64,000 bases of DNA from Oscillospiraceae bacterium (GTDB lineage Bacteria; Bacillota; Clostridia; Oscillospirales; Oscillospiraceae): NCBI GenBank assembly GCA_902778665.1, contig CACYYN010000018.1:23231-87230 (forward strand), written 5' to 3'. The notes below the pieces were generated by a model that had not been told where the DNA came from, ran no database searches, and worked only from the letters and a program-made list of their open reading frames with translations. The translations under genes and the position numbers were made by a program. Positions 6,463 through 36,638 of the stretch are shown piece after piece. Every line of letters starts with the position of its first letter. The stretch's first letter is position 1.

Positions 6463-9400
6463 ATGATTGAGCGTCACTTCAAGTCAATGGACGGCAACAA
6501 CGCAGCCGCCCATGTATCCTACGCATTCACAGAAGTTGCAGCAATCTACCCGATCACCCCGTCCAGCCCGATGGCTGACTATGTGGATCAGTGGTCCGCA
6601 GCAGGCAGAAAGAACATTTTCGGCAGCACTGTCAAAGTGCAGGAAATGCAGGCTGAATCCGGTGCAGCAGGTGCTGTTCACGGCAGTCTGAACGCAGGCG
6701 CCCTCACGACGACCTATACGGCATCCCAGGGTCTTCTGCTGATGATCCCGAACATGTACAAGATTGCCGGTGAGCTTCTTCCCGGTGTCTTCCATGTTAC
6801 CGCCCGTGCCCTTGCATCCCACACCCTCAGCATTTTCGGTGACCATTCCGACGTTATGGCCTGCCGCCAGACCGGCTTTGCCATGCTGTGCGAGTCTAAC
6901 GTTCAGGAAGTTATGGACCTGAGCCCGGTTGCTCACCTCGCAGCAATCAAAGGCCGCGTTCCTTTCCTCAACTTCTTCGATGGTTTCCGCACCTCCCACG
7001 AGATTCAGAAGATCCAGGTATGGGACTATGAAGACCTGGCCGACATGGTAGACATGAAGGCTGTTGAAGAGTTCCGTGCACGCGCTCTGAACCCGAACCA
7101 CCCGACCATGCGCGGCTCTCACGAAAATGGCGACATTTTCTTCCAGAACCGTGAAGCTTCCAACCCGTACTACGAGGCAATTCCTGCAGTTGTGGAAGAG
7201 TACATGGGCAAGATCAACGAGAAGCTCGGCACTGATTACTCCCTGTTCAACTACTACGGTGCTCCCGATGCAGACCGCGTGATCGTAGCAATGGGCTCCA
7301 TCTGCGACGTTGCAGAAGAAGTCATCGATTACCTCACCGCACAGGGTGAGAAGGTCGGCCTGGTAAAGGTCCGCCTGTTCCGCCCGTTCTGCCCGGACAA
7401 GCTGATTGAAGCTATCCCCGCAACCGCAAAGAAGATTGCCGTTCTCGACCGCACCAAGGAGCCCGGCGCACAGGGCGAGCCTCTCTATCTCGACGTTGTC
7501 ACCGCTCTGGCCAATGCCGGCAAGAATGACATCACCGTGATCGGCGGCCGCTACGGTCTCGGTTCCAAAGATACTCCTCCTGCTTCTGTCTTCGCTGTAT
7601 ACAACGAGATGAAGAAGGACACCATGAAGCGCCAGTTCACCATCGGTATTGTGGACGATGTGACCAACCTCTCTCTCGAAGAAACCAAGGCTCCCTCCAC
7701 CACCCCTGCAGGCACCATCGAGTGCAAATTCTGGGGTCTCGGCGGCGACGGCACTGTCGGTGCAAACAAGAACTCCTGCAAGATCATCGGCGACCATACC
7801 GACAAATATGTTCAGGCATACTTCCAGTATGACTCCAAGAAGACCGGCGGCGTAACCGTAAGCCATCTGCGCTTCGGCGACAAGCCCATCAAGAGCCCCT
7901 ACTACATCAACCAGGCTGACTTTGTTGCATGCCACGTTCCTTCCTACATCATGAAGGGCTTCCCCATCGCACGCGATGTGAAGCCGGGCGGCATCTTCCT
8001 TGTCAACAGCCAGTGGAGCTTTGAAGAGCTCGAGCATCATCTCGACGCTGCCTCCAAGCGCTACATTGCCAACCACAATGTTCAGCTCTACATGATCAAC
8101 GCTATTGACCTTGCCAAGAAGATCGGCATGGGCAAGCGCACCAACACCATCCTGCAGTCCGCATTCTTCTCCCTGGCAAAGGTTCTGCCTGAGGCAGAGG
8201 CAATCGGCTACATGAAGGATGCAGCTCTCCATTCCTATCTGAAGAAGGGCCAGGATGTGGTTGACATGAACTACAACGCCATTGATGCCGGCGCCACCGC
8301 CTACACCAAGGTTGAAGTTCCCGAGAGCTGGAAGACCGCTGAAGATGTGGTTGCCGAGAGCAAGCACACCGGCCGCGCTGCCACCCTTGAGACTGTCAAC
8401 AACATTCTTGATCCGGTTGACCGTATGGACGGCGATTCTCTGCCGGTATCCAAGTTCGTCAATCATGCAGACGGCACCTTCCCGCTCGGCGCATCCGCAT
8501 ACGAGAAGCGCGGCATCGCAGTTTCCGTGCCTGAATGGAATGCCGAGAAGTGCGTACAGTGCAACAACTGCGCATTCGTCTGCCCGCATGCTACCATCCG
8601 TCCGTTCGCACTCACCGCTGAAGAAGCTGCTGCTGCACCTGCAAACGCCAAGCTCGCTGACATCAAGGTCGGCAAGGGCAAGGGCGAGTACAAGTTCTGC
8701 ATGGCAGTTTCCCCGCTGGACTGCATGGGCTGCGGCGTCTGCATCAGCCAGTGTGCTGTCGGCGCAATCGAGATGAAGCCGCTTGAGAGCCAGGAAGACC
8801 AGCAGGTCGTCTTCGACTACATGGTGGCCAAGGTTGCAGAGAAGCCCGACATGTTCGCAGCTGACAACGTGAAGTTCAGCCAGTTCGCTCAGCCGTACCT
8901 CGAGTTCTCCGGCTCCTGCGCAGGCTGCGCCGAGACCAGCTATGCACGTCTCGTAACCCAGCTCTTCGGCGATCACATGATGATCTCCAACGCAACCGGA
9001 TGCTCCTCCATCTGGGGCGGCCCGGCAGCAACCTCTCCGTACACTGTCAACAAGGAAGGCAAAGGCCCCTCCTGGGCAAACTCCCTCTTTGAAGACAACG
9101 CAGAGCACGGCCTCGGCCTCTACCTCGGCCAGAAGAAGATCCGCGATGATCTCAAGGCCAAGGTTGAAGCTATGATCGCAGCTCCCAGCTGCTACCAGGG
9201 TCTCAAGGATGCCGCACAGGCATGGCTTGACACCTACAATGACGGCAACAAGAACCAGGCTCCGTCCAAGGCTCTGATTGCTGCTCTCGAAGAGTGCATC
9301 ACCCCGATCGACGGCTGCATCGAGTTCCTGAAGTCTGACACCGCAAAGGGCATCTACGGCGACGCACAGCCCGCAGCACTTGCCAAGGCTGAAGCTGCAA

Positions 9401-10128
9401 AGGCAGCCGGCAGCAACATCTGCACCTGCGATGCATGTCAGCTCGCTTCCCAGATTCTCGCTCAGAAGGATTACCTCAACAAGAAGTCTGCATGGATCTT
9501 CGGCGGCGACGGCTGGGCATACGATATCGGCTACGGCGGCGTTGACCACGTCCTCGCATCCGGTGAAGATGTGAACGTGTTCGTCTTCAACACTGAAGTT
9601 TACTCCAACACCGGCGGACAGGCTTCCAAGGCTTCCAACATCGGCCAGGTTGCACAGTTTGCAGCAGCCGGTAAGGAAATCAAGAGCAAGAGCCTCGCTG
9701 AGATGGCTATGACCTACGGCTACGTTTATGTTGCTCAGATCGCCATGGGCGCCAACAAAGTTCAGACCCTGAAGGCAATTGCCGAAGCTGAAGCATATCC
9801 CGGCCCGTCCCTCATCATTGCCTATGCACCTTGCGAGATGCACAGCATCAAGGGCGGCATGGAGAACTGCCAGAAGGAAATGGACAAGGCCGTCAAGTGC
9901 GGTTACTGGAACCTCTTCCGCTACAACCCGGCTCTGACCGAGAAGCAGTTCACGCTGGACAGCAAGGCTCCCGCAGCCGGCTACAGAGACTTCCTCATGA
10001 ACGAAGCCCGCTACAGCCGCCTGACCCGCGAGTTCCCGGCACGTGCCGACGTTCTGTTCGACAAGTCCGAAGCCAACGCTATGGAGCGTTACGAGCATCT
10101 CGTCAAGCTCCAGGCTATGTACGAATAA
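6463..10128 (+). CDS. nifJ: Pyruvate:ferredoxin (flavodoxin) oxidoreductase
   Basis: Oxidative decarboxylation of pyruvate to acetyl-CoA with ferredoxin as electron acceptor, the central carbon step of many anaerobes. The single 1221-residue chain has the full domain order. It runs from an N-terminal pyrimidine-binding domain (YPITPSSPMA near residue 29), through the transketolase C-terminal-like domain and gamma domain, to a two-cluster ferredoxin domain with Cys 697/700/703/707 and Cys 754/757/760/764. The C-terminal TPP domain carries CAGCAE (Cys 819/822) for the third cluster and GDGWAYDIGYGG near 1015. It is slightly longer than the usual ~1180 residues. Codon use is strongly biased to C-ending codons, as expected for high expression. 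It has its own promoter and terminator. Confidence 0.95.
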   Translation: MIERHFKSMDGNNAAAHVSYAFTEVAAIYPITPSSPMADYVDQWSAAGRKNIFGSTVKVQEMQAESGAAGAVHGSLNAGALTTTYTASQGLLLMIPNMYKIAGELLPGVFHVTARALASHTLSIFGDHSDVMACRQTGFAMLCESNVQEVMDLSPVAHLAAIKGRVPFLNFFDGFRTSHEIQKIQVWDYEDLADMVDMKAVEEFRARALNPNHPTMRGSHENGDIFFQNREASNPYYEAIPAVVEEYMGKINEKLGTDYSLFNYYGAPDADRVIVAMGSICDVAEEVIDYLTAQGEKVGLVKVRLFRPFCPDKLIEAIPATAKKIAVLDRTKEPGAQGEPLYLDVVTALANAGKNDITVIGGRYGLGSKDTPPASVFAVYNEMKKDTMKRQFTIGIVDDVTNLSLEETKAPSTTPAGTIECKFWGLGGDGTVGANKNSCKIIGDHTDKYVQAYFQYDSKKTGGVTVSHLRFGDKPIKSPYYINQADFVACHVPSYIMKGFPIARDVKPGGIFLVNSQWSFEELEHHLDAASKRYIANHNVQLYMINAIDLAKKIGMGKRTNTILQSAFFSLAKVLPEAEAIGYMKDAALHSYLKKGQDVVDMNYNAIDAGATAYTKVEVPESWKTAEDVVAESKHTGRAATLETVNNILDPVDRMDGDSLPVSKFVNHADGTFPLGASAYEKRGIAVSVPEWNAEKCVQCNNCAFVCPHATIRPFALTAEEAAAAPANAKLADIKVGKGKGEYKFCMAVSPLDCMGCGVCISQCAVGAIEMKPLESQEDQQVVFDYMVAKVAEKPDMFAADNVKFSQFAQPYLEFSGSCAGCAETSYARLVTQLFGDHMMISNATGCSSIWGGPAATSPYTVNKEGKGPSWANSLFEDNAEHGLGLYLGQKKIRDDLKAKVEAMIAAPSCYQGLKDAAQAWLDTYNDGNKNQAPSKALIAALEECITPIDGCIEFLKSDTAKGIYGDAQPAALAKAEAAKAAGSNICTCDACQLASQILAQKDYLNKKSAWIFGGDGWAYDIGYGGVDHVLASGEDVNVFVFNTEVYSNTGGQASKASNIGQVAQFAAAGKEIKSKSLAEMAMTYGYVYVAQIAMGANKVQTLKAIAEAEAYPGPSLIIAYAPCEMHSIKGGMENCQKEMDKAVKCGYWNLFRYNPALTEKQFTLDSKAPAAGYRDFLMNEARYSRLTREFPARADVLFDKSEANAMERYEHLVKLQAMYE

Positions 10129-10199: not shown

Positions 10200-11123
10200 A
10201 TGTTTCATTTCGGATTACTCACCGCTATTCTGGACGGATGGTCATTTGAAGAGGCCGTAGACACTGCGGCGGAAATGGGGTTTGAATGCCTCGAAGTCGC
10301 CTGCTGGCCGGCAGGCAAAGCGGAGCGCCGCTATGCGGGAGTTTCCCACATTGACGCAGAGCGCGTGCTGGCAGATGACGACTATGCCGCCTATGTGAAA
10401 AACTATATTGAAGGCAAGGGCATGCATATCTCCTCCCTCGCCTTCTATCCCAACACGATGGATCCTGACCTTGAGAAACGCGCAGCAGCCATTGCCCATC
10501 TGGAGGCACTGATCAAGGCCTCGGCAAAGCTGGGCGTTGGCATGGTGACGACGTTTATCGGCCGTGACCAGACAAAAACCGTGGAAGAGAACATTGAGCT
10601 CTTCCGGGAGATCTGGCCGCCGATTATTGCCCTGGCAGAAGAGAACAATGTAAAAGTCGCCATTGAAAACTGCCCGATGCTCTTCGGCAGAGACCAGTGG
10701 CCGGGCGGACAGAACCTGATGTGCACCCCGGCGATCTTCCGCAAGCTGTTTGAGATTATCCCCTCCCCCAACTTCGGCATCAATTTTGACCCCAGTCATT
10801 ACGTCTGGCAGCAGATGGACTATATCCGCACAATTCACGAGTTTAAGGATCGGATCTTCCATATCCACTTCAAGGATATCAAGCTCTATCCGGAAAAACT
10901 GGCGGAATGCGGCGTGCTTGCCTATCCGCTGGACTACATGAGCCCGAAGATTCCCGGGCTGGGCGACGTGAACTGGAGCGCCTTTGTCTCCGCCCTTCAC
11001 GATATCCGCTACAACGGAGACGCCGTGATTGAAGTGGAAGACAAGGCCTTTGAAAGCAGCCGGGAGGATATCCTCACATCCATCCGCCTGAGCAAGCACT
11101 ATCTCAACAATTTCATCGGTTAA
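10200..11123 (+). CDS. Sugar phosphate isomerase/epimerase family protein (xylose isomerase-like TIM barrel)
   Basis: A 307-residue AP-endonuclease-2/xylose-isomerase-type TIM barrel. The metal-binding acidic and histidine residues of this fold are seen in AIENCPM (Glu near 158), NFDPSHYVW, HIHFKDIKLYP and the late VIEVED. These enzymes isomerise, epimerise or dehydrate sugars and cyclitols, and the substrate cannot be read from the sequence. The gene has its own AAAGGAG ribosome binding site and ends in a bidirectional terminator. It adjoins the ROK/DeoR/glycyl-radical locus and may belong to it functionally, for example by handling a keto-sugar intermediate. That is inference. Confidence 0.8.
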   Translation: MFHFGLLTAILDGWSFEEAVDTAAEMGFECLEVACWPAGKAERRYAGVSHIDAERVLADDDYAAYVKNYIEGKGMHISSLAFYPNTMDPDLEKRAAAIAHLEALIKASAKLGVGMVTTFIGRDQTKTVEENIELFREIWPPIIALAEENNVKVAIENCPMLFGRDQWPGGQNLMCTPAIFRKLFEIIPSPNFGINFDPSHYVWQQMDYIRTIHEFKDRIFHIHFKDIKLYPEKLAECGVLAYPLDYMSPKIPGLGDVNWSAFVSALHDIRYNGDAVIEVEDKAFESSREDILTSIRLSKHYLNNFIG

Positions 11124-11146: not shown

Positions 11147-11185
11147 AAGCGGGAGGGCTCGTCAATGCCTTCCCGCTTCTCTTTA
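11147..11185. terminator. Bidirectional terminator between convergent genes
   Basis: The stem AAGCGGGAGGGC pairs with GCCTTCCCGCTT across an eight-base loop, with T-rich sequence to the right and A-rich sequence to the left. It separates the isomerase gene from the convergent ROK kinase gene. Confidence 0.7.
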
Positions 11186-11193
11186 TCTGTGAA

Positions 11194-12126
11194 TCACCTT
11201 ACCAGCTCGGAGGCGCCGATGATTCCGAAGTCCTGTTTCAGCTCGGCAAAGCGGAATTCCACCGGCTGGGGGATGTGGTTGTAGCGGTCAAATTCCTTCC
11301 GCACCCTGTCAAAGAGCAGATCGCCGAAATGGGTGAGCCCCCCGCCGAAGACAAACAGATTGACATTCAGCAGCTGGTAGATATTGAAAAGGCACACGGC
11401 GAGGTAATGCGCCATCTCGTCCAATTCGGCCAGGGCAAGAGGGTCCCCCTCCCGGCAGGCTGCAAGCAGGGCAACTCCGTCCACATCGCGGGTAAGATCC
11501 ATTTTGGTGTCGAACGAATCCGCCTTCAGGCGCACGCGCCGCGAGATATCCTTTCCCGCAGCCCAGGACATAAAGCAGCCGCGGTTCCGGCAGCCGCACA
11601 TAAGGCCTTCGTCTGGGGTGATGAGCATATGCCCGCTCTCCCCCGCCCAGCCGTAGCTGCCGCGAAACATCTCCCCGTTCAGAATCAGGCCGCTGCCGAT
11701 GCCCGTGCTTGCCGACATGTAGACCATGTGCCGGCTGCCCCGCCCCGCTCCGAACCGGTATTCCGCAAGGGCGGCGCAGTTGCTGTCGTTATCCAGCACA
11801 ATCGGGACCGAAAGCCGCTCTGCCATATAGGAGCGCATGGGAAAGTCACGCACGTTGGTCATGGCGGAGGTCATGCAGATGAAGCCCTCATCAAAAAGGA
11901 TAAAGGAGGGCATGCACACCCCGATTCCTTTCAGGTCCTTCTCCTCCAGAGCATTGCGCTGCAGCACGGTACGGATCTGCCTGAGAATCTGATCGGCAAG
12001 AGAAGGCCCATCGATGGAAGGGTCGGTGGCCTCCCGAAGGCGGTCTATCAGGTTGTTGTCTTCATCAAAAAGGCCGTAGGCGATCTTTGTGCCGCCCACG
12101 TCAATGCCTATGCGATACGCTTTCAT
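11194..12126 (-). CDS. ROK-family sugar kinase
   Basis: A 310-residue ROK (repressor, ORF, kinase) protein without a DNA-binding domain, so probably a sugar kinase. The ATP motif DVGGTKIAYG is at the N-terminus, the catalytic Asp lies in VLDNDSNCAA, and the ROK zinc site CGCRNRGC is present. I chose the second Met (12126). The GGAGG ribosome binding site falls inside the codons after the upstream ATG at 12141, eight bases before 12126. It is the third gene of a leftward operon behind the radical-enzyme activase and a DeoR regulator. That suggests it phosphorylates the imported sugar before the glycyl radical step. Confidence 0.85.
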   Translation of the reverse strand: MKAYRIGIDVGGTKIAYGLFDEDNNLIDRLREATDPSIDGPSLADQILRQIRTVLQRNALEEKDLKGIGVCMPSFILFDEGFICMTSAMTNVRDFPMRSYMAERLSVPIVLDNDSNCAALAEYRFGAGRGSRHMVYMSASTGIGSGLILNGEMFRGSYGWAGESGHMLITPDEGLMCGCRNRGCFMSWAAGKDISRRVRLKADSFDTKMDLTRDVDGVALLAACREGDPLALAELDEMAHYLAVCLFNIYQLLNVNLFVFGGGLTHFGDLLFDRVRKEFDRYNHIPQPVEFRFAELKQDFGIIGASELVR

Positions 12127-12144
12127 GTCTCTGCCCTCCATATT

Positions 12145-12900
12145 TTATTCCGCTGTTCTGGTCACGCTTATTCCTGCCAGATTCAGCGCTTTTTCTTTTT
12201 CATCGGGAAGGTATGCATCTGTGATAACATGCAGGGGTTTTCCTTCCGGGAGCGACAGCGGTACCACGCCGTGACGGGCAAATTTGCTGCTCTCCGTGAT
12301 CACATAGACACCGTCGGCATGCTCCGCCATATCCCGGACTGCCTGAACGCGCAAATGGTCATTACCGGTAAAACCAAGCTGCTCCGAATATCCGTCCACC
12401 CCGATAAACAGCTTATTCACATAAAACTGGGCCGCGCAGGTCCGCAGAATCGGCCCGACCATAACTTGGGCATCCTTCTGGAAGTCGCCCCCGAGGAGGA
12501 TGATGTTTGCGCTTGCGCTTTTTCGGATGAAGCTGGCAATAAACGCGCTGTTGGTAATGATGGTCACATCCGGATTTGCTTCCGCCAGCTCTGCCGCGAA
12601 AAGGGCACAGCAGCTGCCGTTTTCAATCATCACCGTCTCCCCGGGACTTACCAGCCCGGCCGCCGCCTTTGCAATCTTTCTTTTTTCCTCATAATGAACC
12701 GCAATCCTGTTATTCAGATCATCCGAACCGCCGAAGATTGCAAAGCCATGCTCTCGCCGGATCACTCCCCGCTTCTCCAGAGCGTCCAGATCCTTGCGGA
12801 TGGTCACCTGGGATGTCTCCAGTTTTTCCGCAAGAGCAGTTACCTCCATTTTGCCGTTCTCGGCGAGCAGCTCCAGAAGCGCCGTCTCTCTCTTTTTCAT
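12145..12900 (-). CDS. DeoR-family transcriptional regulator
   Basis: A 251-residue sugar-responsive repressor or activator. The N-terminal helix-turn-helix (about residues 1-55, with KLETSQVTIRKDLDALEKRG) is the DeoR type. It is followed by the DeoR C-terminal sensor domain, which normally binds a phosphorylated sugar intermediate (TIITNS and LGGDF segments). It sits between the activase gene (54 bases away) and the ROK kinase gene (18 bases away) and is probably co-transcribed with them. A related 22-base motif occurs at 13803 and 16369, in front of the two rightward transcripts of the locus, and is a candidate target. Confidence 0.88.
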   Translation of the reverse strand: MKKRETALLELLAENGKMEVTALAEKLETSQVTIRKDLDALEKRGVIRREHGFAIFGGSDDLNNRIAVHYEEKRKIAKAAAGLVSPGETVMIENGSCCALFAAELAEANPDVTIITNSAFIASFIRKSASANIILLGGDFQKDAQVMVGPILRTCAAQFYVNKLFIGVDGYSEQLGFTGNDHLRVQAVRDMAEHADGVYVITESSKFARHGVVPLSLPEGKPLHVITDAYLPDEKEKALNLAGISVTRTAE

Positions 12901-12954
12901 TTCAGAGTCCCCTTTCTCATCTTATCAATCGGTTCAAAACCTGTCATTCCGGCA

Positions 12955-13725
12955 TTAACGGAAGGAGCACTCCAGCCCATGCAGCAGAAAAACCTCACGA
13001 TACTTTTCCAGCATCTCGGGATGAAGCTGCTTTACACCCTTCATCTCATAGGGAACGCCCAGCTTCTCATACTTGCTCTCCCCCATCTGATGGAAGGGGA
13101 GAAGATGCACCTCCCGAACCCCCATTTCTGCCAGCTCTGATGCCATCGCTTCCGCAGCGGTGAGAGAGGCGTTGAACCGAGGAATAACCGGGATTCTCGC
13201 GATCACCGGTTTGTCTGACGAAACGGCAGTTATGAGGTTTTCTTTGATAACGTCGTTATACACCCCGGTGCCGCGAAAATGTGCCTCCCGGTCTGCCTGC
13301 TTAAAGTCATAAAGGAGGAGATCAATATGCGAGAGAAAGGTCTTAAAGCGCTCGGGCGAAGTATAGCCCTCCGTCTCGGCAGCCACATGAATGCTCTCCG
13401 CATGGGCAGCATCAGCAAGGCACGCAGCAAACTCCGCCTGCTGGAGCACATCGCCGCCGGAAAACGTCATCCCCCCGCCGGAGCGATCATAGAAGGGCTT
13501 ATCCTGACGGACCACGCTCATCACCTCTTCCACAGTATAGCGCGTGCCCCGGAAGGCAGGATCCTGCATTTCTTCCGTGAAATCGCAAAACCGGTTCTGA
13601 GACTCGGGGTTGGAACACCACCTGCACTGCAGAGGACAGCCCTTGAAAAAAACCGTCGTCCGGATGCCCGGCCCGTCATTGATGCTGAACTTCTGGATAT
13701 TAAAAATCAGGCCCGTCTGCTCCAT
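12955..13725 (-). CDS. Glycyl radical enzyme activase (radical SAM), lacking the ferredoxin insert
   Basis: A 256-residue radical SAM protein that installs the glycyl radical on its partner, here almost certainly the enzyme encoded divergently at 13905. The N-terminus (FSINDGPGIRTTVFFKGCP) is the activase signature, with cluster cysteines Cys30, Cys34 and Cys37 (CxxxCxxC). Most activases of the non-PFL glycyl radical enzymes carry an extra two-cluster ferredoxin segment directly after this. Here only about 20 residues with one cysteine separate SNPES from the GTRYTVEEV strand, so the insert is absent. The SAM-contacting GGE motif reads SGGDV (residues 89-93). It is first in the leftward operon and has its own near-consensus promoter. 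Confidence 0.9.
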   Translation of the reverse strand: MEQTGLIFNIQKFSINDGPGIRTTVFFKGCPLQCRWCSNPESQNRFCDFTEEMQDPAFRGTRYTVEEVMSVVRQDKPFYDRSGGGMTFSGGDVLQQAEFAACLADAAHAESIHVAAETEGYTSPERFKTFLSHIDLLLYDFKQADREAHFRGTGVYNDVIKENLITAVSSDKPVIARIPVIPRFNASLTAAEAMASELAEMGVREVHLLPFHQMGESKYEKLGVPYEMKGVKQLHPEMLEKYREVFLLHGLECSFR

Positions 13726-13758
13726 ATTCGTGTTCCTTTCCCTCTTAAATTCATTTTT

Positions 13759-13787
13759 ATTATAGCCGATTTTTGGATAGTTGTAAA
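13759..13787 (-). promoter_or_regulatory. Promoter of the activase-deoR-ROK operon
   Basis: On the minus strand: TTTACA, a 17-base spacer, then TATAAT, with the -10 box 34 bases before the activase start. Confidence 0.7.
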
Positions 13788-13802
13788 GAGTATTTTATTA
13801 TG

Positions 13803-13824
13803 TTTGAAAGTATTTTTAGTTTCA
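13803..13824. promoter_or_regulatory. Candidate regulator site between the divergent promoters
   Basis: The motif TTTGAnAnTATTTnnnnTTTCA occupies 22 bases. Its core, TGAAAGTATT...AGTTTCA, is an imperfect inverted repeat. It lies exactly between the -35 boxes of the two divergent promoters and recurs with 16 of 22 matches at 16369. The DeoR protein encoded nearby is the obvious candidate ligand. This is inference from position and similarity. Confidence 0.45.
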
Positions 13825-13838
13825 TTCATAATTTTTTA

Positions 13839-13867
13839 TTGACATCGACCCGGTTCAGCTCTATAAT
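13839..13867 (+). promoter_or_regulatory. Consensus promoter of the glycyl radical enzyme gene
   Basis: TTGACA, a 17-base spacer, then TATAAT: a perfect match to the housekeeping promoter. The -10 box ends 37 bases before the start codon, and a GGAGGAG ribosome binding site precedes the ATG. Such a strong promoter is probably held down by a repressor. Confidence 0.85.
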
Positions 13868-13904
13868 AGCGGCAGAATGAGAATTTGCGGAGGAGAAAAG
13901 ATTT

Positions 13905-16319
13905 ATGGAACAATCCGTATCACGCTTCGGCACACTGACGAAGCGCATGAATGCCTATCGCGAGGCATTGCTGTCTGTTCAGCCAAGGGTTTGCGCTGAG
14001 CGCGCCCTTCTGACGACTGAGAGCTACCGCCTGCATGCCGACAAGCCCATTGTGTTGCGCAGGGCGTATATGCTGCAGAATATTCTGGAAAAGATGACCA
14101 TTTATATTGAGCCGGAAACCCTGCTGGCAGGCAATCAGGCGTCCGCCAACCGGGCTGCCCCCATCTTCCCCGAGTACGCGATGGACTGGGTGATTCGGGA
14201 GCTGGATGAATTTGAAAAGCGGGACGGAGACGTCTTTACCATCTCGGAAGAGACGAAGGACCAGCTTCGCAGCATCTATCCCTTCTGGGAGCACAACACG
14301 CTGCTGGACAAGGGGCTTGCCGCCATTCCGCCGGAGAGCCGGGTTTTTTACGATCTCGGCATTATCAAGGCAGAGGGCAACCTGACTTCCGGGGATGCGC
14401 ATATTGCCGTGGCTTACGAAACCGTATTGCGGGAAGGGCTGAAGGCCTACGAGAGCAGAACCGTCTCCTGTATGAATGCACTGGACCTGACCGATTATAA
14501 AAACCTGAAGAAGTATTATTTCTACCAGGCCATTCTGATTGTCATTCAGGCCGTGCGGGATTTTGCCGCACGCTACGCAGACCTGGCAGAGACGCTCGCA
14601 GCGGAGGCGGAGCCGGAGCGTGCCGCCGAGCTAAGGGAGATGGCAAGAATCCTCCGTAAGGTGCCCTATGAGCCTGCCGAAACGCTGCGCGAGGCTGTGC
14701 AGTCTCTGTGGCTTACGCATCTTGTGCTTCAGATTGAGTCGAACGGGCACTCCCTCTCCTACGGGCGGATGGATCAATATCTGTGGCCTTATTACAAGAA
14801 GGATCTGGAACAGGGCGTCATCACAGAGGATGCCGCCTGCGAGCTGATGACCAACCTCTGGCTGAAGACCTTCACCATCAACAAAATCCGCTCCTGGAGC
14901 CACACCCAGTTCAGTGCAGGGTCTCCCCTCTACCAGAATGTGACCATCGGCGGCCAGACGCCGCAGCATGAAGACGCCGTCAACCCCATGTCCTATCTGA
15001 TTCTGCGCTCGGTGGCACAGACGCATCTGCCACAGCCCAACCTGACGGTGCGCTATCATGCCGGGCTGCCGGATGATTTTATGAATGAGGCGATTGAGGT
15101 GGTCAAGCTGGGCTTCGGGATGCCCGCATTCAACAATGATGAGATCATCATCCCATCTTTCATCCGCCGCGGTGTGAAGGAGGAGGACGCCTACAACTAC
15201 AGTGCCATCGGCTGCGTAGAAACCGCCGTGCCCGGCAAGTGGGGCTACCGATGCACCGGCATGAGCTTTCTGAACTTCCCCAAGTCGCTGCTGATTGCCA
15301 TGAACAACGGCACCGACCCTCAGAGCGGCACCCACCTTGTGGAGGGCACCGGCCATTTCAGAGACATGACCTCCTATGAGCAGCTTGCCCACGCCTGGGA
15401 CGTGGTCATCCGTGACTTTACACGGCACAGTGTCATCATTGAGAACGCCTGTGACATGGTGCTGGAGGAGAACGTGCCGGATGTGCTGTGCTCCGCCCTG
15501 TGTGAAGACTGCATCGGCCGCGGCCTGACGCTGAAAGAAGGCGGCGCTGTTTATGACTATATCAGCGGCCTGCAGGTGGGCATTGCCAACCTGGCCGATT
15601 CTCTCGCCGCCATTAAAAAGCTTGTCTTCGAAGAGAAAAAGCTCACGACCGCCGAGCTCTGGTCTGCACTGGAGACTGACTTTGCCGGAGAGGACGGCGA
15701 ACGGATCCGCCAGATGCTGATCAACGACGCCCCGAAATACGGCAATGATGACGACTATGTGGACAAGCTGATCGTTGAGGCCTATGACAGCTATATCGAC
15801 GAGATCCGGAAGTATCCCAACACCCGCTTCGGGCGCGGCCCCATCGGCGGGATTCGCTATGCGGGCACCTCCTCTATCTCTGCAAACGTGGGGCAGGGGC
15901 GAGGGACACTCGCCACCCCGGACGGACGCCATGCCGGCGAGCCGCTGGCCGAGGGCTGCTCTCCCAGCCATGCCATGGACAGGAACGGCCCCACTGCCGT
16001 CTTCAAATCCGTCAGCAAGCTGCGCACGGAGGAAATCACCGGCGGCGTGCTGCTGAACCAGAAGGTCACCCCGGCACTTCTCTCAAAAGAGGAGAACAAG
16101 CAGAAGCTGATTTTGCTGGTAAGGACGTTTTTCGACCTTCTCCACGGCTATCACGTGCAGTATAACGTAGTCTCCAGGGAAACAATGCTGGACGCCCAGA
16201 TCCACCCCGAGAAGCACCGCGATCTGATCGTCCGGGTGGCGGGCTACAGCGCCTTCTTCAACGTCCTCTCCCGCCAGACACAGGACGATATCATTGCCCG
16301 CACGGAGCAGTCACTTTGA
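13905..16319 (+). CDS. Glycyl radical enzyme of the YbiW type (probable anhydrohexitol-6-phosphate ring-opening lyase)
   Basis: An 804-residue glycyl radical enzyme with a PFL-type ten-stranded barrel. The thiyl Cys437 and the adjacent Glu439 lie in IGCVETAVPGKWGYRCTGM, and the radical Gly780 lies in RVAGYSAFF near the C-terminus. It is not pyruvate formate-lyase, which has a Cys-Cys pair. From memory of E. coli YbiW, the segments around IIKAEGNLTSGDAH, NGHSLSYGRMDQYL, SAGSPLYQNVTIGGQ and the Cys loop match closely. PflD is more distant. E. coli YbiW has been reported to open 1,5-anhydroglucitol-6-phosphate to 1-deoxyfructose-6-phosphate. Here the neighbouring ROK kinase, Gfo/Idh/MocA enzyme and sugar importer fit such a pathway. 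The exact substrate is inferred. Confidence 0.88.
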   Translation: MEQSVSRFGTLTKRMNAYREALLSVQPRVCAERALLTTESYRLHADKPIVLRRAYMLQNILEKMTIYIEPETLLAGNQASANRAAPIFPEYAMDWVIRELDEFEKRDGDVFTISEETKDQLRSIYPFWEHNTLLDKGLAAIPPESRVFYDLGIIKAEGNLTSGDAHIAVAYETVLREGLKAYESRTVSCMNALDLTDYKNLKKYYFYQAILIVIQAVRDFAARYADLAETLAAEAEPERAAELREMARILRKVPYEPAETLREAVQSLWLTHLVLQIESNGHSLSYGRMDQYLWPYYKKDLEQGVITEDAACELMTNLWLKTFTINKIRSWSHTQFSAGSPLYQNVTIGGQTPQHEDAVNPMSYLILRSVAQTHLPQPNLTVRYHAGLPDDFMNEAIEVVKLGFGMPAFNNDEIIIPSFIRRGVKEEDAYNYSAIGCVETAVPGKWGYRCTGMSFLNFPKSLLIAMNNGTDPQSGTHLVEGTGHFRDMTSYEQLAHAWDVVIRDFTRHSVIIENACDMVLEENVPDVLCSALCEDCIGRGLTLKEGGAVYDYISGLQVGIANLADSLAAIKKLVFEEKKLTTAELWSALETDFAGEDGERIRQMLINDAPKYGNDDDYVDKLIVEAYDSYIDEIRKYPNTRFGRGPIGGIRYAGTSSISANVGQGRGTLATPDGRHAGEPLAEGCSPSHAMDRNGPTAVFKSVSKLRTEEITGGVLLNQKVTPALLSKEENKQKLILLVRTFFDLLHGYHVQYNVVSRETMLDAQIHPEKHRDLIVRVAGYSAFFNVLSRQTQDDIIARTEQSL

Positions 16320-16368
16320 CCTGCCGCATTCTGAAACACCCTTACCGAAAATTTCTGCCAATTTTTTA

Positions 16369-16390
16369 TTTGATACTATTTGACATTTCA
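16369..16390. promoter_or_regulatory. Second copy of the candidate regulator site, overlapping a -35 box
   Basis: This 22-base stretch shares TTTGA, TATTT and TTTCA at identical spacing with the site at 13803 (16 of 22 bases). It covers the -35 box of the following promoter, a typical repressor position. Confidence 0.45.
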
Positions 16391-16408
16391 GCTCATTCGC
16401 GATACACT
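16380..16408 (+). promoter_or_regulatory. Promoter of the Gfo/Idh/MocA-ABC transporter operon
   Basis: TTGACA, a 17-base spacer, then TACACT. It lies 60 bases after the glycyl radical enzyme stop codon and 46 bases before the next start codon. Confidence 0.65.
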
Positions 16409-16454
16409 ATATTCATCCCAAATTAGTGATATTAACCAAAAGGAGTTGTTTTAA

Positions 16455-17492
16455 ATGTTAAATGTTGCTGTTCTGGGCTGCGGAAAAATAGCCCAGGTAC
16501 GCCACATTCCGGAATATGCTGCCAACAGCCATGTGAAGCTTGTCGGTTTCTATAACCCCACCTCCAGCCGAGCGGAAGACATGGCAAAAAAATACGGCGG
16601 GAAGGTCTATCTCTCCCCGGAAGAGGTGTTTGCAGACCCCGCGGTAGATGCGGTTTCCGTCTGCTCTGCCAATTATGCCCATGCCTCCCTCACCATCGCG
16701 GCACTGAAGGCAGGCAAACACGTCCTCTGTGAAAAGCCCATGGCCACCACACAGGAAGACTGCGAGGCAATGCTTGCCGAGGCGAAAAAAGCAGGCAAAC
16801 GGCTGCTGATTGCACAGAACCAGAGGCTTGCAAAGGCGCACACCGCCGCGAAAGGGCTTCTGGATGAGGGGCTCATCGGCGATGTGATCACCTTCCGCAC
16901 CACATTCGGCCACGGCGGGCCGGAAACCTGGTCTATCACGCCGGGCAAAAACACCTGGTTCTTCGATAAAAAACGCGCCGCTATGGGGGCTATGGCAGAT
17001 CTTGGCATTCACAAAACGGATCTGATCCGCTACCTCCTCGGCAGGGACGTGGTGCGCACCACTGCCCGCCTCACCACACTGGACAAGCGCGGAGCTGACG
17101 GCGAACTGATCGGTGTGGACGACAATGCCATCTGCATTTATGAGATGGAAGGCGGCATTCTCGGCACCATGACCGTGAGCTGGACCTATTACGGTGCGGA
17201 GGACAACTCCACCATTCTCTACGGCACAAAGGGCATCATGCGCATTTATGACGACCCTGCCCATTCCATCGTTGTCAAGCTGGCTGATGGGACTGAGAAG
17301 ACCTATGATGTGGAGCAGATCCAGACCAATGACAACCAGACGGCATCCGGCGTTATTGATGAATTTGTCTCTGCAGTGGAGGAAAACCGCCCCAGCATTC
17401 TGGATGCGCAGGGCGTGCTGAACTCCATGAAGGCCGTGTTTGCCAGCATCGCTTCCAGCGAGAGCGGCAGCCCGGTGCTCGTTGAGGGGTAA
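16455..17492 (+). CDS. Gfo/Idh/MocA-family NAD(P)-dependent sugar oxidoreductase
   Basis: A 345-residue oxidoreductase. The N-terminal Rossmann domain has VLGCGKIAQVRHIP, and the family's EKP motif is in GKHVLCEKPMATT (near residues 91-98). The C-terminal sheet domain has the substrate-binding DLGIHKTDLIRYLLG signature. Family members oxidise or reduce sugars and cyclitols. Bacterial 1,5-anhydro-D-fructose reductase belongs to this family, which makes an anhydro-sugar role plausible here. Inositol- or glucose-type substrates are the alternative. It has its own promoter and an AAGGAG ribosome binding site, and it heads the transcript carrying the ABC importer genes. Confidence 0.85.
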   Translation: MLNVAVLGCGKIAQVRHIPEYAANSHVKLVGFYNPTSSRAEDMAKKYGGKVYLSPEEVFADPAVDAVSVCSANYAHASLTIAALKAGKHVLCEKPMATTQEDCEAMLAEAKKAGKRLLIAQNQRLAKAHTAAKGLLDEGLIGDVITFRTTFGHGGPETWSITPGKNTWFFDKKRAAMGAMADLGIHKTDLIRYLLGRDVVRTTARLTTLDKRGADGELIGVDDNAICIYEMEGGILGTMTVSWTYYGAEDNSTILYGTKGIMRIYDDPAHSIVVKLADGTEKTYDVEQIQTNDNQTASGVIDEFVSAVEENRPSILDAQGVLNSMKAVFASIASSESGSPVLVEG

Positions 17493-17518
17493 TAACTGTA
17501 AAACAGTTGTTATAAAAA
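17491..17518 (+). other. Small intercistronic hairpin
   Basis: AATAACTGT pairs with ACAGTTGTT around an AAA loop, followed by an A-run and a T-run, between the oxidoreductase and binding-protein genes. It may be a processing or partial termination site that adjusts relative expression. Confidence 0.35.
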
Positions 17519-17540
17519 AATTTTTATCTGGAGGAAGATC

Positions 17541-18635
17541 ATGAAGAAAATTCTCGCAATTGCTCTCGCACTGTGCATGGTATTTGCTCTCTGCGCAGTA
17601 TCCGCATCTGCTGACGGCAAGACCATCTATGTTCTCGGACCTACCCCTGACCACGGCTGGACGGCACAGGCCGGTGCTTATGCACAGGCAAAGTGCGAAG
17701 AGATCACCGCTGAAGGCACCTACAAGGCTGTCTACATCCCCGCATCCTCCGGTGAAGAGCAGGTTGACCAGATCAACACCATCGTTGCAAACGGCGACGC
17801 CGCTATCGTTGTTATGATGGCACTGGATGACTCCGCTCAGGCCGGCCAGGAAACCCTCTATGCAGAAGGAATCCCCTTCATCTCCTTCGACCGTATCATT
17901 GAAGCCACCGAGGCCTATGCAGCTCTGAACTACTCCGGTAACAACTGGGAGTGCGGCGCAGGCATTGCTTACTGGCTCCAGAAGAACGGCATGCAGCCGG
18001 GCGACACGGTTGTTGTTCTCTACGGCGACAACGGCACCGTCTGCTCCCGCCGTCAGGAAGGCTTTGAGCAGTTCCTCCGCGGCGAAATGAAATACTCCGA
18101 CCTGAACAACGGCGAATTCGAGACCACACAGGTTTGGGAACAGGCTGACATCGACAACATCTTCAACGGCTACACCGTCGTCTGCAACTGGTCTGCTGAC
18201 GGGGCATACGGCTACATCGAGCAGAAGTTCGATGAGATCGTTGCCGCTGCAAAAGCAAACACCGGCAAGCTCTACATCTACTCCATGGACGATGAGATGA
18301 CCTTCGGTGTTCTCAACTATCTCCAGGCCGGTGCATCTGCCGAGACACTCGCCGACACGGAAGCTCTTGAGGTCTACATTTCCGCTATCGGCGGTATGCA
18401 GGAGCTCTACAACGTCATGGCTGGCACTGATGAGAAGAGCGAACTCGCTGCCAAGTACTTTGACGACATGATGTCCGTCTCCTTCAACCCGAAGATGATG
18501 CAGTCTGCTATCCAGTACGGCGTTGACTTTGTCAACGGCAACTGGGACTTTGAGCAGGGCTCCGGTTCCTACGAACCCGTGTTCATCGTTGACCGCACCA
18601 ACGCAGCTGAGGTGGAAGGCTTCCAGGGTCACTGA
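17541..18635 (+). CDS. Sugar ABC transporter substrate-binding protein (RbsB-like)
   Basis: A 364-residue secreted binding protein of the periplasmic-binding-protein type I fold, the substrate-capturing part of the importer encoded next. A signal peptide (positively charged start, hydrophobic stretch 4-18) ends in VSASA with no lipobox cysteine at the right place. The mature start KTIYVLGPTPDHGWTAQAGAYAQ is typical of ribose/galactose/autoinducer-2-type binders, and MDDEMTFGVLNYLQAG matches the hinge region. C-ending codons and a strong GGAGG site suggest high expression. The substrate is unknown and inferred from the locus to be an anhydro- or related sugar. Confidence 0.88.
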   Translation: MKKILAIALALCMVFALCAVSASADGKTIYVLGPTPDHGWTAQAGAYAQAKCEEITAEGTYKAVYIPASSGEEQVDQINTIVANGDAAIVVMMALDDSAQAGQETLYAEGIPFISFDRIIEATEAYAALNYSGNNWECGAGIAYWLQKNGMQPGDTVVVLYGDNGTVCSRRQEGFEQFLRGEMKYSDLNNGEFETTQVWEQADIDNIFNGYTVVCNWSADGAYGYIEQKFDEIVAAAKANTGKLYIYSMDDEMTFGVLNYLQAGASAETLADTEALEVYISAIGGMQELYNVMAGTDEKSELAAKYFDDMMSVSFNPKMMQSAIQYGVDFVNGNWDFEQGSGSYEPVFIVDRTNAAEVEGFQGH

Positions 18636-18676
18636 TTCCCGGATAAGCTTTGCCTGGCTTTAAGCTGAACCGACTT

Positions 18677-18710
18677 GCGGATGCAGGCACCCCCTGCATC
18701 CGCACCCTTT
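18677..18710 (+). terminator. Attenuating hairpin after the binding-protein gene
   Basis: A perfect eleven-base-pair stem (GCGGATGCAGG with CCTGCATCCGC, five-base loop) is followed by ACCCTTT. Its position between binding protein and ATPase is typical of hairpins that keep binding-protein mRNA in excess over the membrane components. Confidence 0.65.
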
Positions 18711-18782
18711 ATCGGCATTTTACAGTTATTACACCATCATTCCTCTTGAATAAAAAAGGCACTAACAAGGGAGACCGCATTT

Positions 18783-20300
18783 ATGACTATCCTTGAGATG
18801 AACCACATTTCCAAGTCATTCGGCGGAGCAAAAGCGCTTTCAGATGTCCATCTTTCCATCGAAAAGGGCGAAATCCATGCACTTCTCGGAGAAAACGGGG
18901 CAGGAAAAAGCACCCTGATGAACATTCTGACTGGCGTCATACCGGCGGATGAAGGCACCATTACCTTTCTTGGAAAACAGTATCCCAGCCCCACAATCCA
19001 GCAGATGGAGGCGGCCGGCATTGCATTCGTCCATCAGGAGCTGAATGTCATCAACGATCTGTCCGTCTCTGACAATATTTTTCTCTGCCGCGAAATCAAA
19101 ACGAAGTTCGGCCTGATTGATCAGAAAGAGCAGCTCAAGCGGACCCGGCAGCTGTTTGAAGATCTTGGTGTGGATATGAATCCCTCCGCCATGGTCTCTG
19201 AGCTGAAGGCCAGTGAGAAGCAGCTTCTTGAAATCTGCCGTGCTCTTTATGCAGACGCCCAGCTTCTGATTCTGGATGAGCCTACCACATCCCTCTCCAA
19301 CAACGAAATTGACCATCTGTTCGGTATCCTCCGCAGGCTGAAAGAACAGGGCAAATCCTTCATCTTTATCTCTCACAAAATGCCGGAGGTTTTTGCCATT
19401 TCAGACCGGTACACGGTCCTGAGAAACGGTGAATTTGTGGCGGAAGCGGAAGGATTTATCCGGGATACAGACCCCCACGCCATCACGTCTTTCATGGTCG
19501 GCAAGCAGTATGTTGACACGGAAGTTTACCAGCCCCGGCCCCTCGGCGATGTGGTGCTGAAGCTGGAAGGCTTTACCGGCGAGGGATTTGAAGATATAAA
19601 CCTGGAGGCAAAACGCGGAGAGATCATCGCTTTCACCGGCCTTGCAGGCTGCGGCGCATCCGAACTGATGCAGACGATGTTCGGCGTGCTGCCCTCCACC
19701 GGCGGGACTTTCTCCGTCTACGGCAAGCCGCTGCAGGGTCCCGTTGTCAGCTTTATGAAGAACTCTGTTGCCATGCTGCCTTCCAACCGCAAAGAAAACT
19801 CCGTGGTGCCGGATATGAGCATTTTGGAAAACTTCTATCTGGCGGAGCATGAAATTTCCAAGCGGAAAAAACCCTTTATCAACACGAAGGAAGAGCTGGC
19901 ACGCTATTCTGCCCAGAAGGAAGCTCTGCGCATCAAGGCCGGCAATTCGTCCGACAGCATCTCCTCCCTCTCCGGCGGCAACCAGCAAAAGGTCTTCCTT
20001 GCCCGCTGGCTGAATATCGGGGCAGACATTCTCCTCTTTGACAACCCGACCCAGGGTGTTGATGTAGGCGCCAAGGAGGAGATCTACAAGCTGATCCTTG
20101 ATTTTGCCCAGCAGGGAAAAACCGTTATTATCAACACCCTCGAAATTCCGGAAATCCAGAAAGTGGCAGACCGGTGCGTCGTCTTTTACGAGGGAAAAAT
20201 TGTTAAGATATTCGATCACAGCGAAGTCAACGAGCACAACGTTATGATGTATTCCACCAATGCTATTGAGACAACTCGGGAGGGCAGCAGCCATGAATAA
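18783..20300 (+). CDS. Sugar ABC transporter ATP-binding protein (RbsA/MglA type, two nucleotide-binding domains)
   Basis: A 505-residue duplicated ATPase energising simple-sugar import. The first half has Walker A GENGAGKST near residue 37, an LSGG-equivalent degenerate segment (VSELKASEKQLLEI) and Walker B LLILDEPTTSL. The second half has a degenerate Walker A (FTGLAGCGASELM), intact signature SSLSGGNQQKV and ILLFDNPTQGVDVGAKEEIY. This asymmetry is normal for the RbsA/MglA family. A GGGAG ribosome binding site precedes the start, and the gene overlaps the permease gene by eight bases. Confidence 0.93.
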   Translation: MTILEMNHISKSFGGAKALSDVHLSIEKGEIHALLGENGAGKSTLMNILTGVIPADEGTITFLGKQYPSPTIQQMEAAGIAFVHQELNVINDLSVSDNIFLCREIKTKFGLIDQKEQLKRTRQLFEDLGVDMNPSAMVSELKASEKQLLEICRALYADAQLLILDEPTTSLSNNEIDHLFGILRRLKEQGKSFIFISHKMPEVFAISDRYTVLRNGEFVAEAEGFIRDTDPHAITSFMVGKQYVDTEVYQPRPLGDVVLKLEGFTGEGFEDINLEAKRGEIIAFTGLAGCGASELMQTMFGVLPSTGGTFSVYGKPLQGPVVSFMKNSVAMLPSNRKENSVVPDMSILENFYLAEHEISKRKKPFINTKEELARYSAQKEALRIKAGNSSDSISSLSGGNQQKVFLARWLNIGADILLFDNPTQGVDVGAKEEIYKLILDFAQQGKTVIINTLEIPEIQKVADRCVVFYEGKIVKIFDHSEVNEHNVMMYSTNAIETTREGSSHE

Positions 20301-21378
20301 CAACAGTTTCGGCAAGAAGCTGGGCAGAGTCTGGAGCCAGTACAGCTATATCTTCGTTCTGCTGATCATCATGATCGGCTACGCGTTTACGATCCACTCC
20401 AACGGCAACACCTTTAAATTCAGTCACATTGCAGCCATCCTCGGCAGCCAGAACACCTGTATTGTCGGCACCATTGCCCTTGGCATGGCGTTTGTCATCA
20501 TCACCGGGCAGATTGACCTGTCGGTTGGTTCCTCCCTTGTGCTGTGCACCGGCGTTACCATTGTGGTGTTTAACCTGACGGACAATGTGTTCCTCATGAT
20601 CCTCGCCGCCCTGGCAACCGGCGCTCTCTGCGGCCTCATTAACGGGCTTCTGGTCGGGCTTGGCAAAATGCCGCCCTTCGTCGTCACCCTCGGCACCATG
20701 CTGATCTACCGTTCGCTCACCCTCTCCGTCGTGCGGAAGGTAGACCCTGCCATCAGCGGCTCCTCCTCCAGTCAGTTCGCCATGATCAGCAAAAAGGCCA
20801 ACTACCAGTTTCTCCGCATGCAGTTTGGCACCGGGAAGCTGAAATTCGGCACATTCTCGATTCCGTATATCTTCTTCGTCTTCCTGCTGGTGGCAATCAT
20901 CCTGATTATTGTCTCCCGCAAGACAAAATACGGCAAGAGCGTATACGCAGTTGGTTCTAATGAGAAGAGCGCCCGCCTCGCCGGCATTAATGTCACCTGG
21001 GTGAAGATCTCCGTTTTTGTTCTCACCGGCGTTCTGGTGGGTATCGCCTCCATCCTGCAGGCCTGCAAGATCGGCAATGTGACCCCCGCCTCCTCCGGAC
21101 AGAGCTATGAGATGTATGCCATTGCCTCGGTTGTGCTGGCAGGCGTCAGCATGGCAGGCGGCAAGGGAAACATGCTGGGTGTTATCTTCGGTGCCCTCTC
21201 CTACACCACCATTAACTTTATCATTGTTTCCATCCCCGGCCTCAGTGTGGACATTCAGGACACCTTCCAGGGCCTCGTGCTCATCATCGTCATCCTGATT
21301 CAGACTGCAGGCCCGGCCATCAAGGAAAGCTTCCAGCGCTCCCGCAAACGCCGCCTTGCCTCAGCAAAGGCAGAATGA
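20293..21378 (+). CDS. Sugar ABC transporter permease (RbsC type)
   Basis: A 361-residue inner-membrane permease with about eight to ten hydrophobic helices. The family signatures GMAFVIITGQIDLSVGS and GSNEKSARLAGINV (cytoplasmic loop contacting the ATPase) are clear. The Met at 20293 has a GGGAGG site about nine bases upstream and overlaps the ATPase gene by eight bases. An upstream in-frame Met would overlap much more. It is the last gene of the operon, and a palindromic repeat follows within 20 bases. Confidence 0.92.
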   Translation: MNNNSFGKKLGRVWSQYSYIFVLLIIMIGYAFTIHSNGNTFKFSHIAAILGSQNTCIVGTIALGMAFVIITGQIDLSVGSSLVLCTGVTIVVFNLTDNVFLMILAALATGALCGLINGLLVGLGKMPPFVVTLGTMLIYRSLTLSVVRKVDPAISGSSSSQFAMISKKANYQFLRMQFGTGKLKFGTFSIPYIFFVFLLVAIILIIVSRKTKYGKSVYAVGSNEKSARLAGINVTWVKISVFVLTGVLVGIASILQACKIGNVTPASSGQSYEMYAIASVVLAGVSMAGGKGNMLGVIFGALSYTTINFIIVSIPGLSVDIQDTFQGLVLIIVILIQTAGPAIKESFQRSRKRRLASAKAE

Positions 21379-36322: not shown

Positions 36323-36638
36323 GATATTTCCTCCGTATCAATATTTTTCTAGCCTTTTCAGGCTGAATTGTCTATATTATATTCAGAGGAATAATACTTT
36401 TCAATTGACGAACTTATCTCAATTATTCACAATTATCAGTTATCAGCTTATTTGAAATTCAAAACAAAAGCTTTTGGTTCAAATTATTAAATTATCTTGC
36501 CTGTCTGTTTTCCTTTCTCTTCTCACTTCATCCTGGTTTATTTATTATTTTCCACCTTCTCTTTACAATTTTGCATGGCTCTTAATTCTTTCTGGTGATA
36601 AAATAATATTGATTTATTGTATCTTGAGAGGAATCGCT
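36323..36638. other. Divergent intergenic region between the transporter and rhamnosidase operons
   Basis: A 316-base A+T-rich region. It holds the leftward promoter at 36376-36404. The rightward gene lacks a convincing promoter by eye, which fits activation by the AraC-type response regulator encoded downstream. No repeat or RNA structure stands out. Confidence 0.4.
36376..36404 (-). promoter_or_regulatory. Promoter of the CUT1 transporter operon
   Basis: On the minus strand: TTGAAA, a 17-base spacer, then TATAAT, 54 bases before the binding-protein start codon. Confidence 0.65.

Follow-up and report, generated by a model that had tools for sequence, protein, structure and literature searches.

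Gene content and transcription of the locus

We analyzed a 64,000-nt stretch of the genome of an anaerobic, gut-type Oscillospiraceae bacterium (contig CACYYN010000018.1; hereafter the window), which carries at 11194–21378 a locus built around a glycyl radical enzyme (GRE). A preliminary description had listed eight genes here, encoding a YbiW-like GRE, its activase, a DeoR regulator, a ROK kinase, a Gfo/Idh/MocA oxidoreductase and an Rbs-type importer, and had proposed that together they form a self-contained catabolic island for an anhydrohexitol. Open reading frame (ORF) and profile searches found all eight genes in place. We conclude that the locus probably encodes a kinase-fed variant of a known pathway, that of Escherichia coli YbiW; the earlier proposal is right in part, and the locus is not a complete self-contained island.

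Three genes lie on the minus strand: the ROK sugar kinase (11194–12141; PF00480, 188 bits), the DeoR-family regulator (12145–12900; profile search) and the GRE-activating radical S-adenosylmethionine enzyme (12955–13725, 256 aa; profile search and motif count). The other five are on the plus strand, beginning with the 804-aa GRE (13905–16319; Pfam, alignment and tree) and the oxidoreductase, hereafter Gfo (16455–17492; profile and PDB sequence searches). They are followed by the sugar-binding protein of the importer (Peripla_BP_4 by Pfam, 17541–18635), an Rbs/Ara-type double ATP-binding subunit (18783–20300; profile search) and a BPD_transp_2 permease (20293–21378), for which the ATG at 20293 fits better than the opening of the ORF at 20260. 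Peripla_BP_4, double ATPase and BPD_transp_2 together make this an Rbs-type (CUT2) importer. Outside the earlier gene list, Pfam identified an AP_endonuc_2 TIM-barrel sugar enzyme (10200–11123, plus strand, 307 aa). Its gene is convergent with the ROK gene, 70 bases away, and a terminator-like hairpin of 12 pairs lies between the two (11147–11178, plus strand); the hairpin scan of the window found 14 such structures compared to 11.7 expected in shuffles.

The gap between the activase and GRE genes holds a perfect sigma-70-like site directed towards the GRE (TTGACA-17-TATAAT, 12/12 consensus positions; 13839–13867, plus strand) and an 11/12 site directed towards activase, DeoR and ROK (13787–13759, minus strand). 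These sites support divergent transcription of the activase–DeoR–ROK genes and the GRE-side genes, in line with the two transcripts predicted earlier. The consensus scan found 14 promoter-like sites across the window compared to 7.4 ± 2.2 in shuffles, so a single match is weak and no proof alone. A 10/12 site upstream of Gfo (16380–16408, plus strand) could give the Gfo–importer genes a separate transcript. The DeoR regulator may control the divergent promoters; footprinting on three aligned sequences gave no convincing operator in the promoter region.

The radical enzyme belongs to the YbiW clade

The GRE matches the PFL-like (707 bits) and Gly_radical (114 bits) profiles of Pfam, scores that exclude a chance match. 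Its Cys437 and Glu439, which form the Cys-x-Glu of the loop GCVETAVPGKWGYRCTGM, and its radical Gly780 lie where they had been placed earlier. The protein shares 52% identity with E. coli YbiW and 40% with PflD. Its top three PDB sequence matches (6xs4 and two chains named YbiW, 8yjn and 8id7) score 889–897 bits, compared to 582 for glycerol dehydratase, 549 for diol dehydratase and 494 for PflD. It falls far below the NCBIfam equivalog cut-offs for CutC, HypD, HpsG/HpfG, indoleacetate decarboxylase, 4-hydroxyphenylacetate decarboxylase and pyruvate formate-lyase.

A quick tree of 46 GREs (44 of the 84 in hand, chosen by us, plus two more, with CutC, HypD and the like left out) places the window GRE in one clade with YbiW, PflD being the outgroup. 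The motifs IIKAEGN and WGYRCTGMSF are common to the window GRE and YbiW and are not found in PflD. Residues, profiles, identities, PDB ranks and tree agree, and the predicted identity of the enzyme as a YbiW-type radical enzyme is well supported. The phylogenetic check suggested in the preliminary description thus came out in its favor, the other GRE families having been compared by PDB ranks and NCBIfam cut-offs.

The activase differs from its E. coli counterpart. Between CX3CX2C and GGMTFSGG it has a 46-residue stretch with one Cys, compared to 92 residues and 6 Cys in E. coli YbiY; the auxiliary iron-sulfur insert has apparently been lost. PflA of E. coli (246 aa) is likewise short, but our motif script did not parse it, and some other rows of the activase motif table were misparsed as well. 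The short one-Cys form also occurs at loci L048, L089, L049, L035, L050 and others.

We also noted a second motif type in the YbiW clade, in which FGMEGK or LGMEGK-x-N[SA]GDAH replaces IIKAEGN-x-TSGDAH (L050, L053–L057, L059–L066, L070–L077 and others). It is common in Bacillota and Coriobacteria whose GREs are linked to fructose-6-phosphate aldolase (FSA) or GldA, and it may mark another specificity. The source genome itself carries a second GRE of 675 aa, 30% identical to the first (G000:C1 11306–12646; L046 10856–12883), with an adjoining activase-like gene; this GRE reaches no NCBIfam cut-off.

A ROK kinase with a distinctive motif accompanies YbiW-clade enzymes

The window ROK kinase matches PF00480 and departs from the family at one position of its zinc motif. 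Where the motif reads CxCGxxGCxE, the kinase has CGCRNRGCFM, with Met191 in place of Glu, and thus lacks the acidic last residue of CxCGxxGCx(E/D). The other sugar-binding residues N118, D119, E168 and H171 are kept. The same Met (GCxM) is found in 13/13 such kinases that adjoin YbiW-clade GREs, namely those of nine loci from a contig scan, the window, two genus-mates (L159 and L160) and a relative (G008) whose kinase and GRE genes overlap by 4 bases. These 13 kinases span four phyla: Bacillota, Spirochaetota, Bacteroidota and Chloroflexota. At the same position, 23 other motif-bearing ROK proteins have Glu (21), Asp (1) or Gln (1), and none has Met. The comparison set, in which several proteins are repressor-like, comprises four E. 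coli kinases, 16 proteins from the source and relatives' genomes and three from the loci; ten of the 26 ROK control loci were left out (five without a match to the ROK query, one holding the window's own kinase and four without a full motif).

In glucokinases, the motif Glu binds the hydroxyls at C1 and C2, and we take Asp187 of NagK to occupy the position of the Glu that is replaced here. The Glu that ends the zinc motif of ROK kinases is described as one sugar-contacting residue (PMC2742894, PMC5458393), and Asp187 is named among the contacts of NagK with N-acetylglucosamine (PMC10031466). The change from Glu to Met would therefore fit a substrate altered at its reducing end and without a C1 hydroxyl, such as an anhydrohexitol.

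For the contig scan, we searched genome contigs of 84,980 species for relatives of the GRE, which gave at least 588 stretches, and kept the best 80 loci. A GRE scoring more than 700 bits is present in 75 of them (L122, L123, L124, L126 and L127 were dropped). A locus was called FSA-linked if an FSA-type aldolase of at least 100 bits lies within 6.5 kb of the GRE. A window-like ROK kinase is next to the GRE in 9 of the 75 loci and FSA in 45, and no locus has both, so that FSA occurs in 0/9 kinase-type neighborhoods compared to 45/66 other loci. The pattern recurs when only loci with 3 kb or more of sequence on both flanks are counted (53 loci; kinase 5, FSA 38, both 0; Fisher p 0.001) and among the 34 of these that remain without enterobacteria (5, 22 and 0; p 0.003), with the limit that these p values ignore relatedness and that the distribution of the two labels, kinase and FSA, over the GRE tree requires only 4 changes. 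We dropped the more general statement that ROK and FSA never co-occur near a GRE, as it holds only for the Met-type kinases; one gene row (L059/L207) has an FSA-like gene and a different ROK.

Kinase and GRE distances correlate (Mantel r 0.93, 11 pairs). With all alignment columns, the 13 kinases fall on one side of a single branch of the kinase tree (SH-aLRT 89); when the motif columns and three long rows are removed, they need two changes. The GREs that partner these kinases are scattered in the YbiW clade (7 changes).

The gene row mentioned above bears on the order of the steps. In genus-mate G281 (L207), a row of same-strand genes encodes a GRE, an FSA-like aldolase, a BglK-like ROK and a GldA-like protein; gene row and scores match those of L059 from Oscillospiraceae RGIG3788. 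The aldolase reaches 225 bits, short of the 246-bit equivalog cut-off for FSA; the ROK falls far short of the one for BglK; and the GldA-like gene is over the glycerol dehydrogenase subfamily cut-off and under the GldA equivalog. The row resembles the window locus in pairing a YbiW-clade GRE with a ROK kinase in the same genus; it differs in its FGMEGK-type GRE, in a BglK-like ROK without the zinc motif and in carrying the aldolase and the GldA-like gene. Judged by its gene content, it appears to encode the complete expected route, a kinase replacing the phosphotransferase system (PTS), which would support the logic of a kinase followed by the radical enzyme. Together with the shared Glu-to-Met change (13/13), it backs the earlier suggestion that the ROK kinase supplies the 6-phosphate.

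A probable kinase-fed YbiW pathway

The downstream steps of the E. coli route are reportedly an FsaA/B aldolase and GldA (Ma et al., 2024). YbiW and PflD are described as cleaving 1,5-anhydroglucitol-6-phosphate and 1,5-anhydromannitol-6-phosphate, respectively, to 1-deoxyfructose-6-phosphate, the 6-phosphates being made by the PTS (PMC12441222). We consider it fairly likely that the activase, GRE, ROK and DeoR core of the window locus specifies a PTS-independent form of the YbiW pathway, in which a 1,5-anhydrohexitol, most likely 1,5-anhydroglucitol, is phosphorylated and its ring opened. The sugar would be taken up unphosphorylated and phosphorylated at O6 by the ROK kinase. The GRE, charged by the activase, would then open the ring of the 6-phosphate by radical C–O cleavage to give 1-deoxyfructose-6-phosphate. 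No PTS gene is among the eight genes of the locus, to which the search for PTS genes was confined. More tentatively, YbiW-clade GREs in at least four phyla may be served by a dedicated ROK 1,5-anhydrohexitol 6-kinase, marked by the Met, in pathways that are PTS-independent and continue through a non-FSA aldolase or another route.

Several observations weigh against the PTS-independent YbiW pathway as the reading of the core. The zinc motif is altogether absent from five ROK-like proteins encoded close to YbiW-clade GREs (L059, L208, L071, L058 and L068). The Met could point to a different substrate with a change at C1 or C2, and the covariance of kinase and GRE may reflect shared descent alone. 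Without the motif columns, a single clade of the 13 kinases appears in 36% of bootstrap trees and is not rejected (p-AU 0.335). The transaldolase/FSA family PF00923 has no match in the source genome (84% complete) or in the ROK–GRE relative G008 (98% complete), and at eight iron-containing alcohol dehydrogenase loci of the source genome (L136–L143; the same 84% complete assembly) no match to GldA exceeds 38 bits. To these we add the occurrences of the importer, Gfo and TIM-barrel genes apart from the GRE, given in the next section.

Viewed more broadly, PF00923 is absent from 5/9 other ROK–GRE genomes, for which completeness is not given, and present in 4/9, which brings the ROK–GRE genomes without a match to 7/11 checked. 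It is present in 5/5 FSA-linked control genomes and in 16/200 sampled genomes of the family. The source genome has nine iron-containing alcohol dehydrogenase matches, seven of them over the cut-off, and one resembles FucO at 447 bits. The genome search for an FsaA-type aldolase and GldA proposed earlier thus yielded no FSA-family gene and, at the eight of nine dehydrogenase matches examined, no close GldA relative. We considered cleavage of the product by a class II aldolase or DeoC of the source genome, which our data neither support nor exclude.

The oxidoreductase, importer and TIM-barrel genes

We compared the locus across 101 genomes of the genus. The TIM barrel (threshold E up to 1e-40) occurs in 30, the binding protein (at least 80% identity) in 11 and the GRE (at least 89%) in 4; two further genomes carry a 68% GRE. 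In 4/4 genomes with the close GRE, the GRE, Gfo, binding protein, ATP-binding cassette (ABC) subunit and permease genes lie in a row on one strand. The block from the pyruvate:ferredoxin oxidoreductase (PFOR) gene to the permease is conserved in G237 and G297, and in G233 the contig begins inside the GRE.

It is possible, if somewhat doubtful, that Gfo, TIM barrel and importer form an independent module of the 3-keto-glycoside or inositol type that merely sits beside the GRE–kinase pair, with the GRE substrate entering otherwise. Among the seven other genomes with the binding protein, five have the importer and one the binding protein alone, without an adjoining GRE, and one is cut. In detail, G270 has Gfo, binding protein, ABC subunit, permease and TIM barrel without a GRE; G304 has Gfo and importer close to the end of a contig, and its whole genome is without such a GRE (best match 34%); in G265, G281 and G269 the importer genes do not adjoin a GRE; in G228 the binding protein gene adjoins neither ABC genes nor a GRE; and G268 is cut by the contig end. 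TIM barrel (81–87%) and Gfo (68–73%) are adjacent without a GRE in 11/15 genus stretches read; two of these, looked at in more detail, each contain an additional Gfo and an additional TIM barrel. The separate promoter-like site before Gfo agrees with such a module. Against independence, Lachnospiraceae Zagget2 (L089/L247) has orthologs of the importer (ABC subunit 72%, permease 66%, binding protein 43–49% identical) within about 10 kb of its GRE, with the ROK between, and a 67% identical TIM-barrel ortholog about 18 kb from the GRE. Rbs-type importers are also present at other ROK–GRE loci (L048, L049, L085, L116 and G008).

The importer and the TIM barrel are thus found near the GRE–kinase pair in two families, yet also without the pair. 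The importer probably brings in the substrate or a precursor of it, since its orthologs lie within about 10 kb of a ROK–GRE pair in another family. Its substrate cannot be guessed from the PDB, since a PDB search with the binding protein gave no match at E 1e-5. Gfo and the TIM barrel probably represent a sugar-processing module of older origin, which either feeds the pathway or just uses the same importer.

At two ROK–GRE loci, we observed a lactonase gene (PF10282) near the ROK kinase (L089, 3991–7186; L048, 5899–7056). L089 additionally encodes a 2-hydroxyacid dehydrogenase and a Gfo protein. A pathway from anhydroglucitol would not be expected to involve a lactone.

Other substrates and functions

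A different substrate for the GRE–kinase pair, another 6-phosphorylated 1-deoxy or anhydro sugar such as 1,5-anhydromannitol-6-phosphate, is in our view unlikely. The YbiW clade has at least two variants of a conserved stretch (IIKAEGN-x-TSGDAH and FGMEGK-x-N[SA]GDAH), so substrates may differ within it; the Gfo family includes the 1,5-anhydrofructose reductase (2glx), and the product of a Rhizobiaceae reductase is described as anhydromannitol (PMC12441222). However, the window GRE has the YbiW form of the motifs and not the PflD form.

We regard as less likely still the integrated island of the preliminary description, in which the importer takes up 1,5-anhydrofructose or 1,5-anhydroglucitol, Gfo interconverts the keto and hydroxyl forms, the ROK kinase phosphorylates and the GRE opens the ring. 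The conserved row of GRE, Gfo and importer genes in all four genomes with the close GRE agrees with it. However, 2glx, although of the Gfo/Idh/MocA family, ranks only 7th among the PDB matches of Gfo, at 96 bits, behind chains of DgpA, glucose–fructose oxidoreductase and aldose–aldose oxidoreductase, and Gfo reaches no NCBIfam cut-off. With this rank, and with a Rhizobiaceae enzyme whose product is anhydromannitol, the 6-phosphate of which is the substrate of PflD rather than YbiW, the reductase step is not supported. Gfo and importer genes occur without a GRE in G270 and G304, and beyond the genus we saw either a distant Gfo or none at the ROK–GRE loci. As no aldolase was found and the oxidoreductase module occurs without the GRE, the idea of a self-contained island does not hold up.

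That the ROK is an ordinary glucokinase and its pairing with the GRE incidental is very unlikely: its closest solved relatives are glucokinases (3vgk, 167 bits), but it scores 197.9 bits against the 260.35-bit cut-off of the glucokinase subfamily (TIGR00744), the four linked kinases scanned from other loci are likewise below the cut-off, and the Glu-to-Met change and the pairing are shared across four phyla.

Comparison with known systems

The kinase-fed YbiW pathway that we favor would share with the E. coli YbiW/YbiY/FsaA pathway the GRE clade, the catalytic and loop motifs, the activase and the expected ring opening. It differs in having a ROK kinase and an ABC importer in place of the PTS, a short activase, no FsaA or GldA in the locus and no FSA family found in the genome. 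E. coli PflD/PflC, which acts on 1,5-anhydromannitol-6-phosphate, is alike in GRE superfamily and reaction type; PflD is the more distant enzyme by identity, lacks the WGYRCTGM loop and the IIKAEGN motif, and is flanked by PTS genes in E. coli. The D-allose als operon of E. coli (AlsBAC, AlsK) offers a parallel, in that a free hexose enters through an Rbs-type importer and is then phosphorylated by a ROK kinase, but the operon has no radical enzyme and AlsK keeps the motif Glu.

Among the titles and abstract openings listed by our searches of the open literature, none describes a kinase-fed version; subscription papers were outside these searches, and such a version may already have been published. 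1,5-Anhydroglucitol is described as a polyol of blood and food whose 6-phosphate harms neutrophils in two human disorders, and the bacterial route described there is PTS-fed (PMC12441222). A kinase-fed version would extend the pathway to the bacteria with the ROK pairing, in Oscillospiraceae, Lachnospiraceae, spirochaetes, Bacteroidales and Chloroflexota, and the Met signature would be a searchable mark of it. It also defines a testable gap, the cleavage of 1-deoxyfructose-6-phosphate without FSA.

Related radical enzymes and neighboring genes

A plasmid search with the GRE returned 65 records, of which the best 10 are Enterococcus megaplasmids (69–70% identity) and Klebsiella plasmids (about 52%). 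The megaplasmids of Enterococcus gilvus and E. raffinosus (L035 and L036; about 0.9–1 Mb) carry a 69–70% identical YbiW-clade GRE with an activase and DeoR; neither FSA nor a ROK kinase was seen near this GRE. The same search with the binding protein found nothing. Viral scans gave either nothing or only a 28% pyruvate formate-lyase-like relative. This 28% match to the GRE occurs on four putative viral IMG/VR contigs (L037–L040; 33–220 kb); the L037 gene codes for a pyruvate formate-lyase-like protein of 741 aa that contains a glycyl radical domain.

Two other loci (L083, 10004–17283; L088, 9992–17429) each have a row of same-strand genes that code for a YbiW-like GRE, FSA-type aldolase, activase, PflD-like GRE and Gfo protein. 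A role in the pathway for the PFOR encoded next to the window locus (6463–10128) was considered and dropped, as evidence was lacking. Elsewhere in the window, we noted genes for a HipA-like protein (HipA_C, Couple_hipA; 27000–28277) and an alpha-L-rhamnosidase-like glycosidase (36474–39053).

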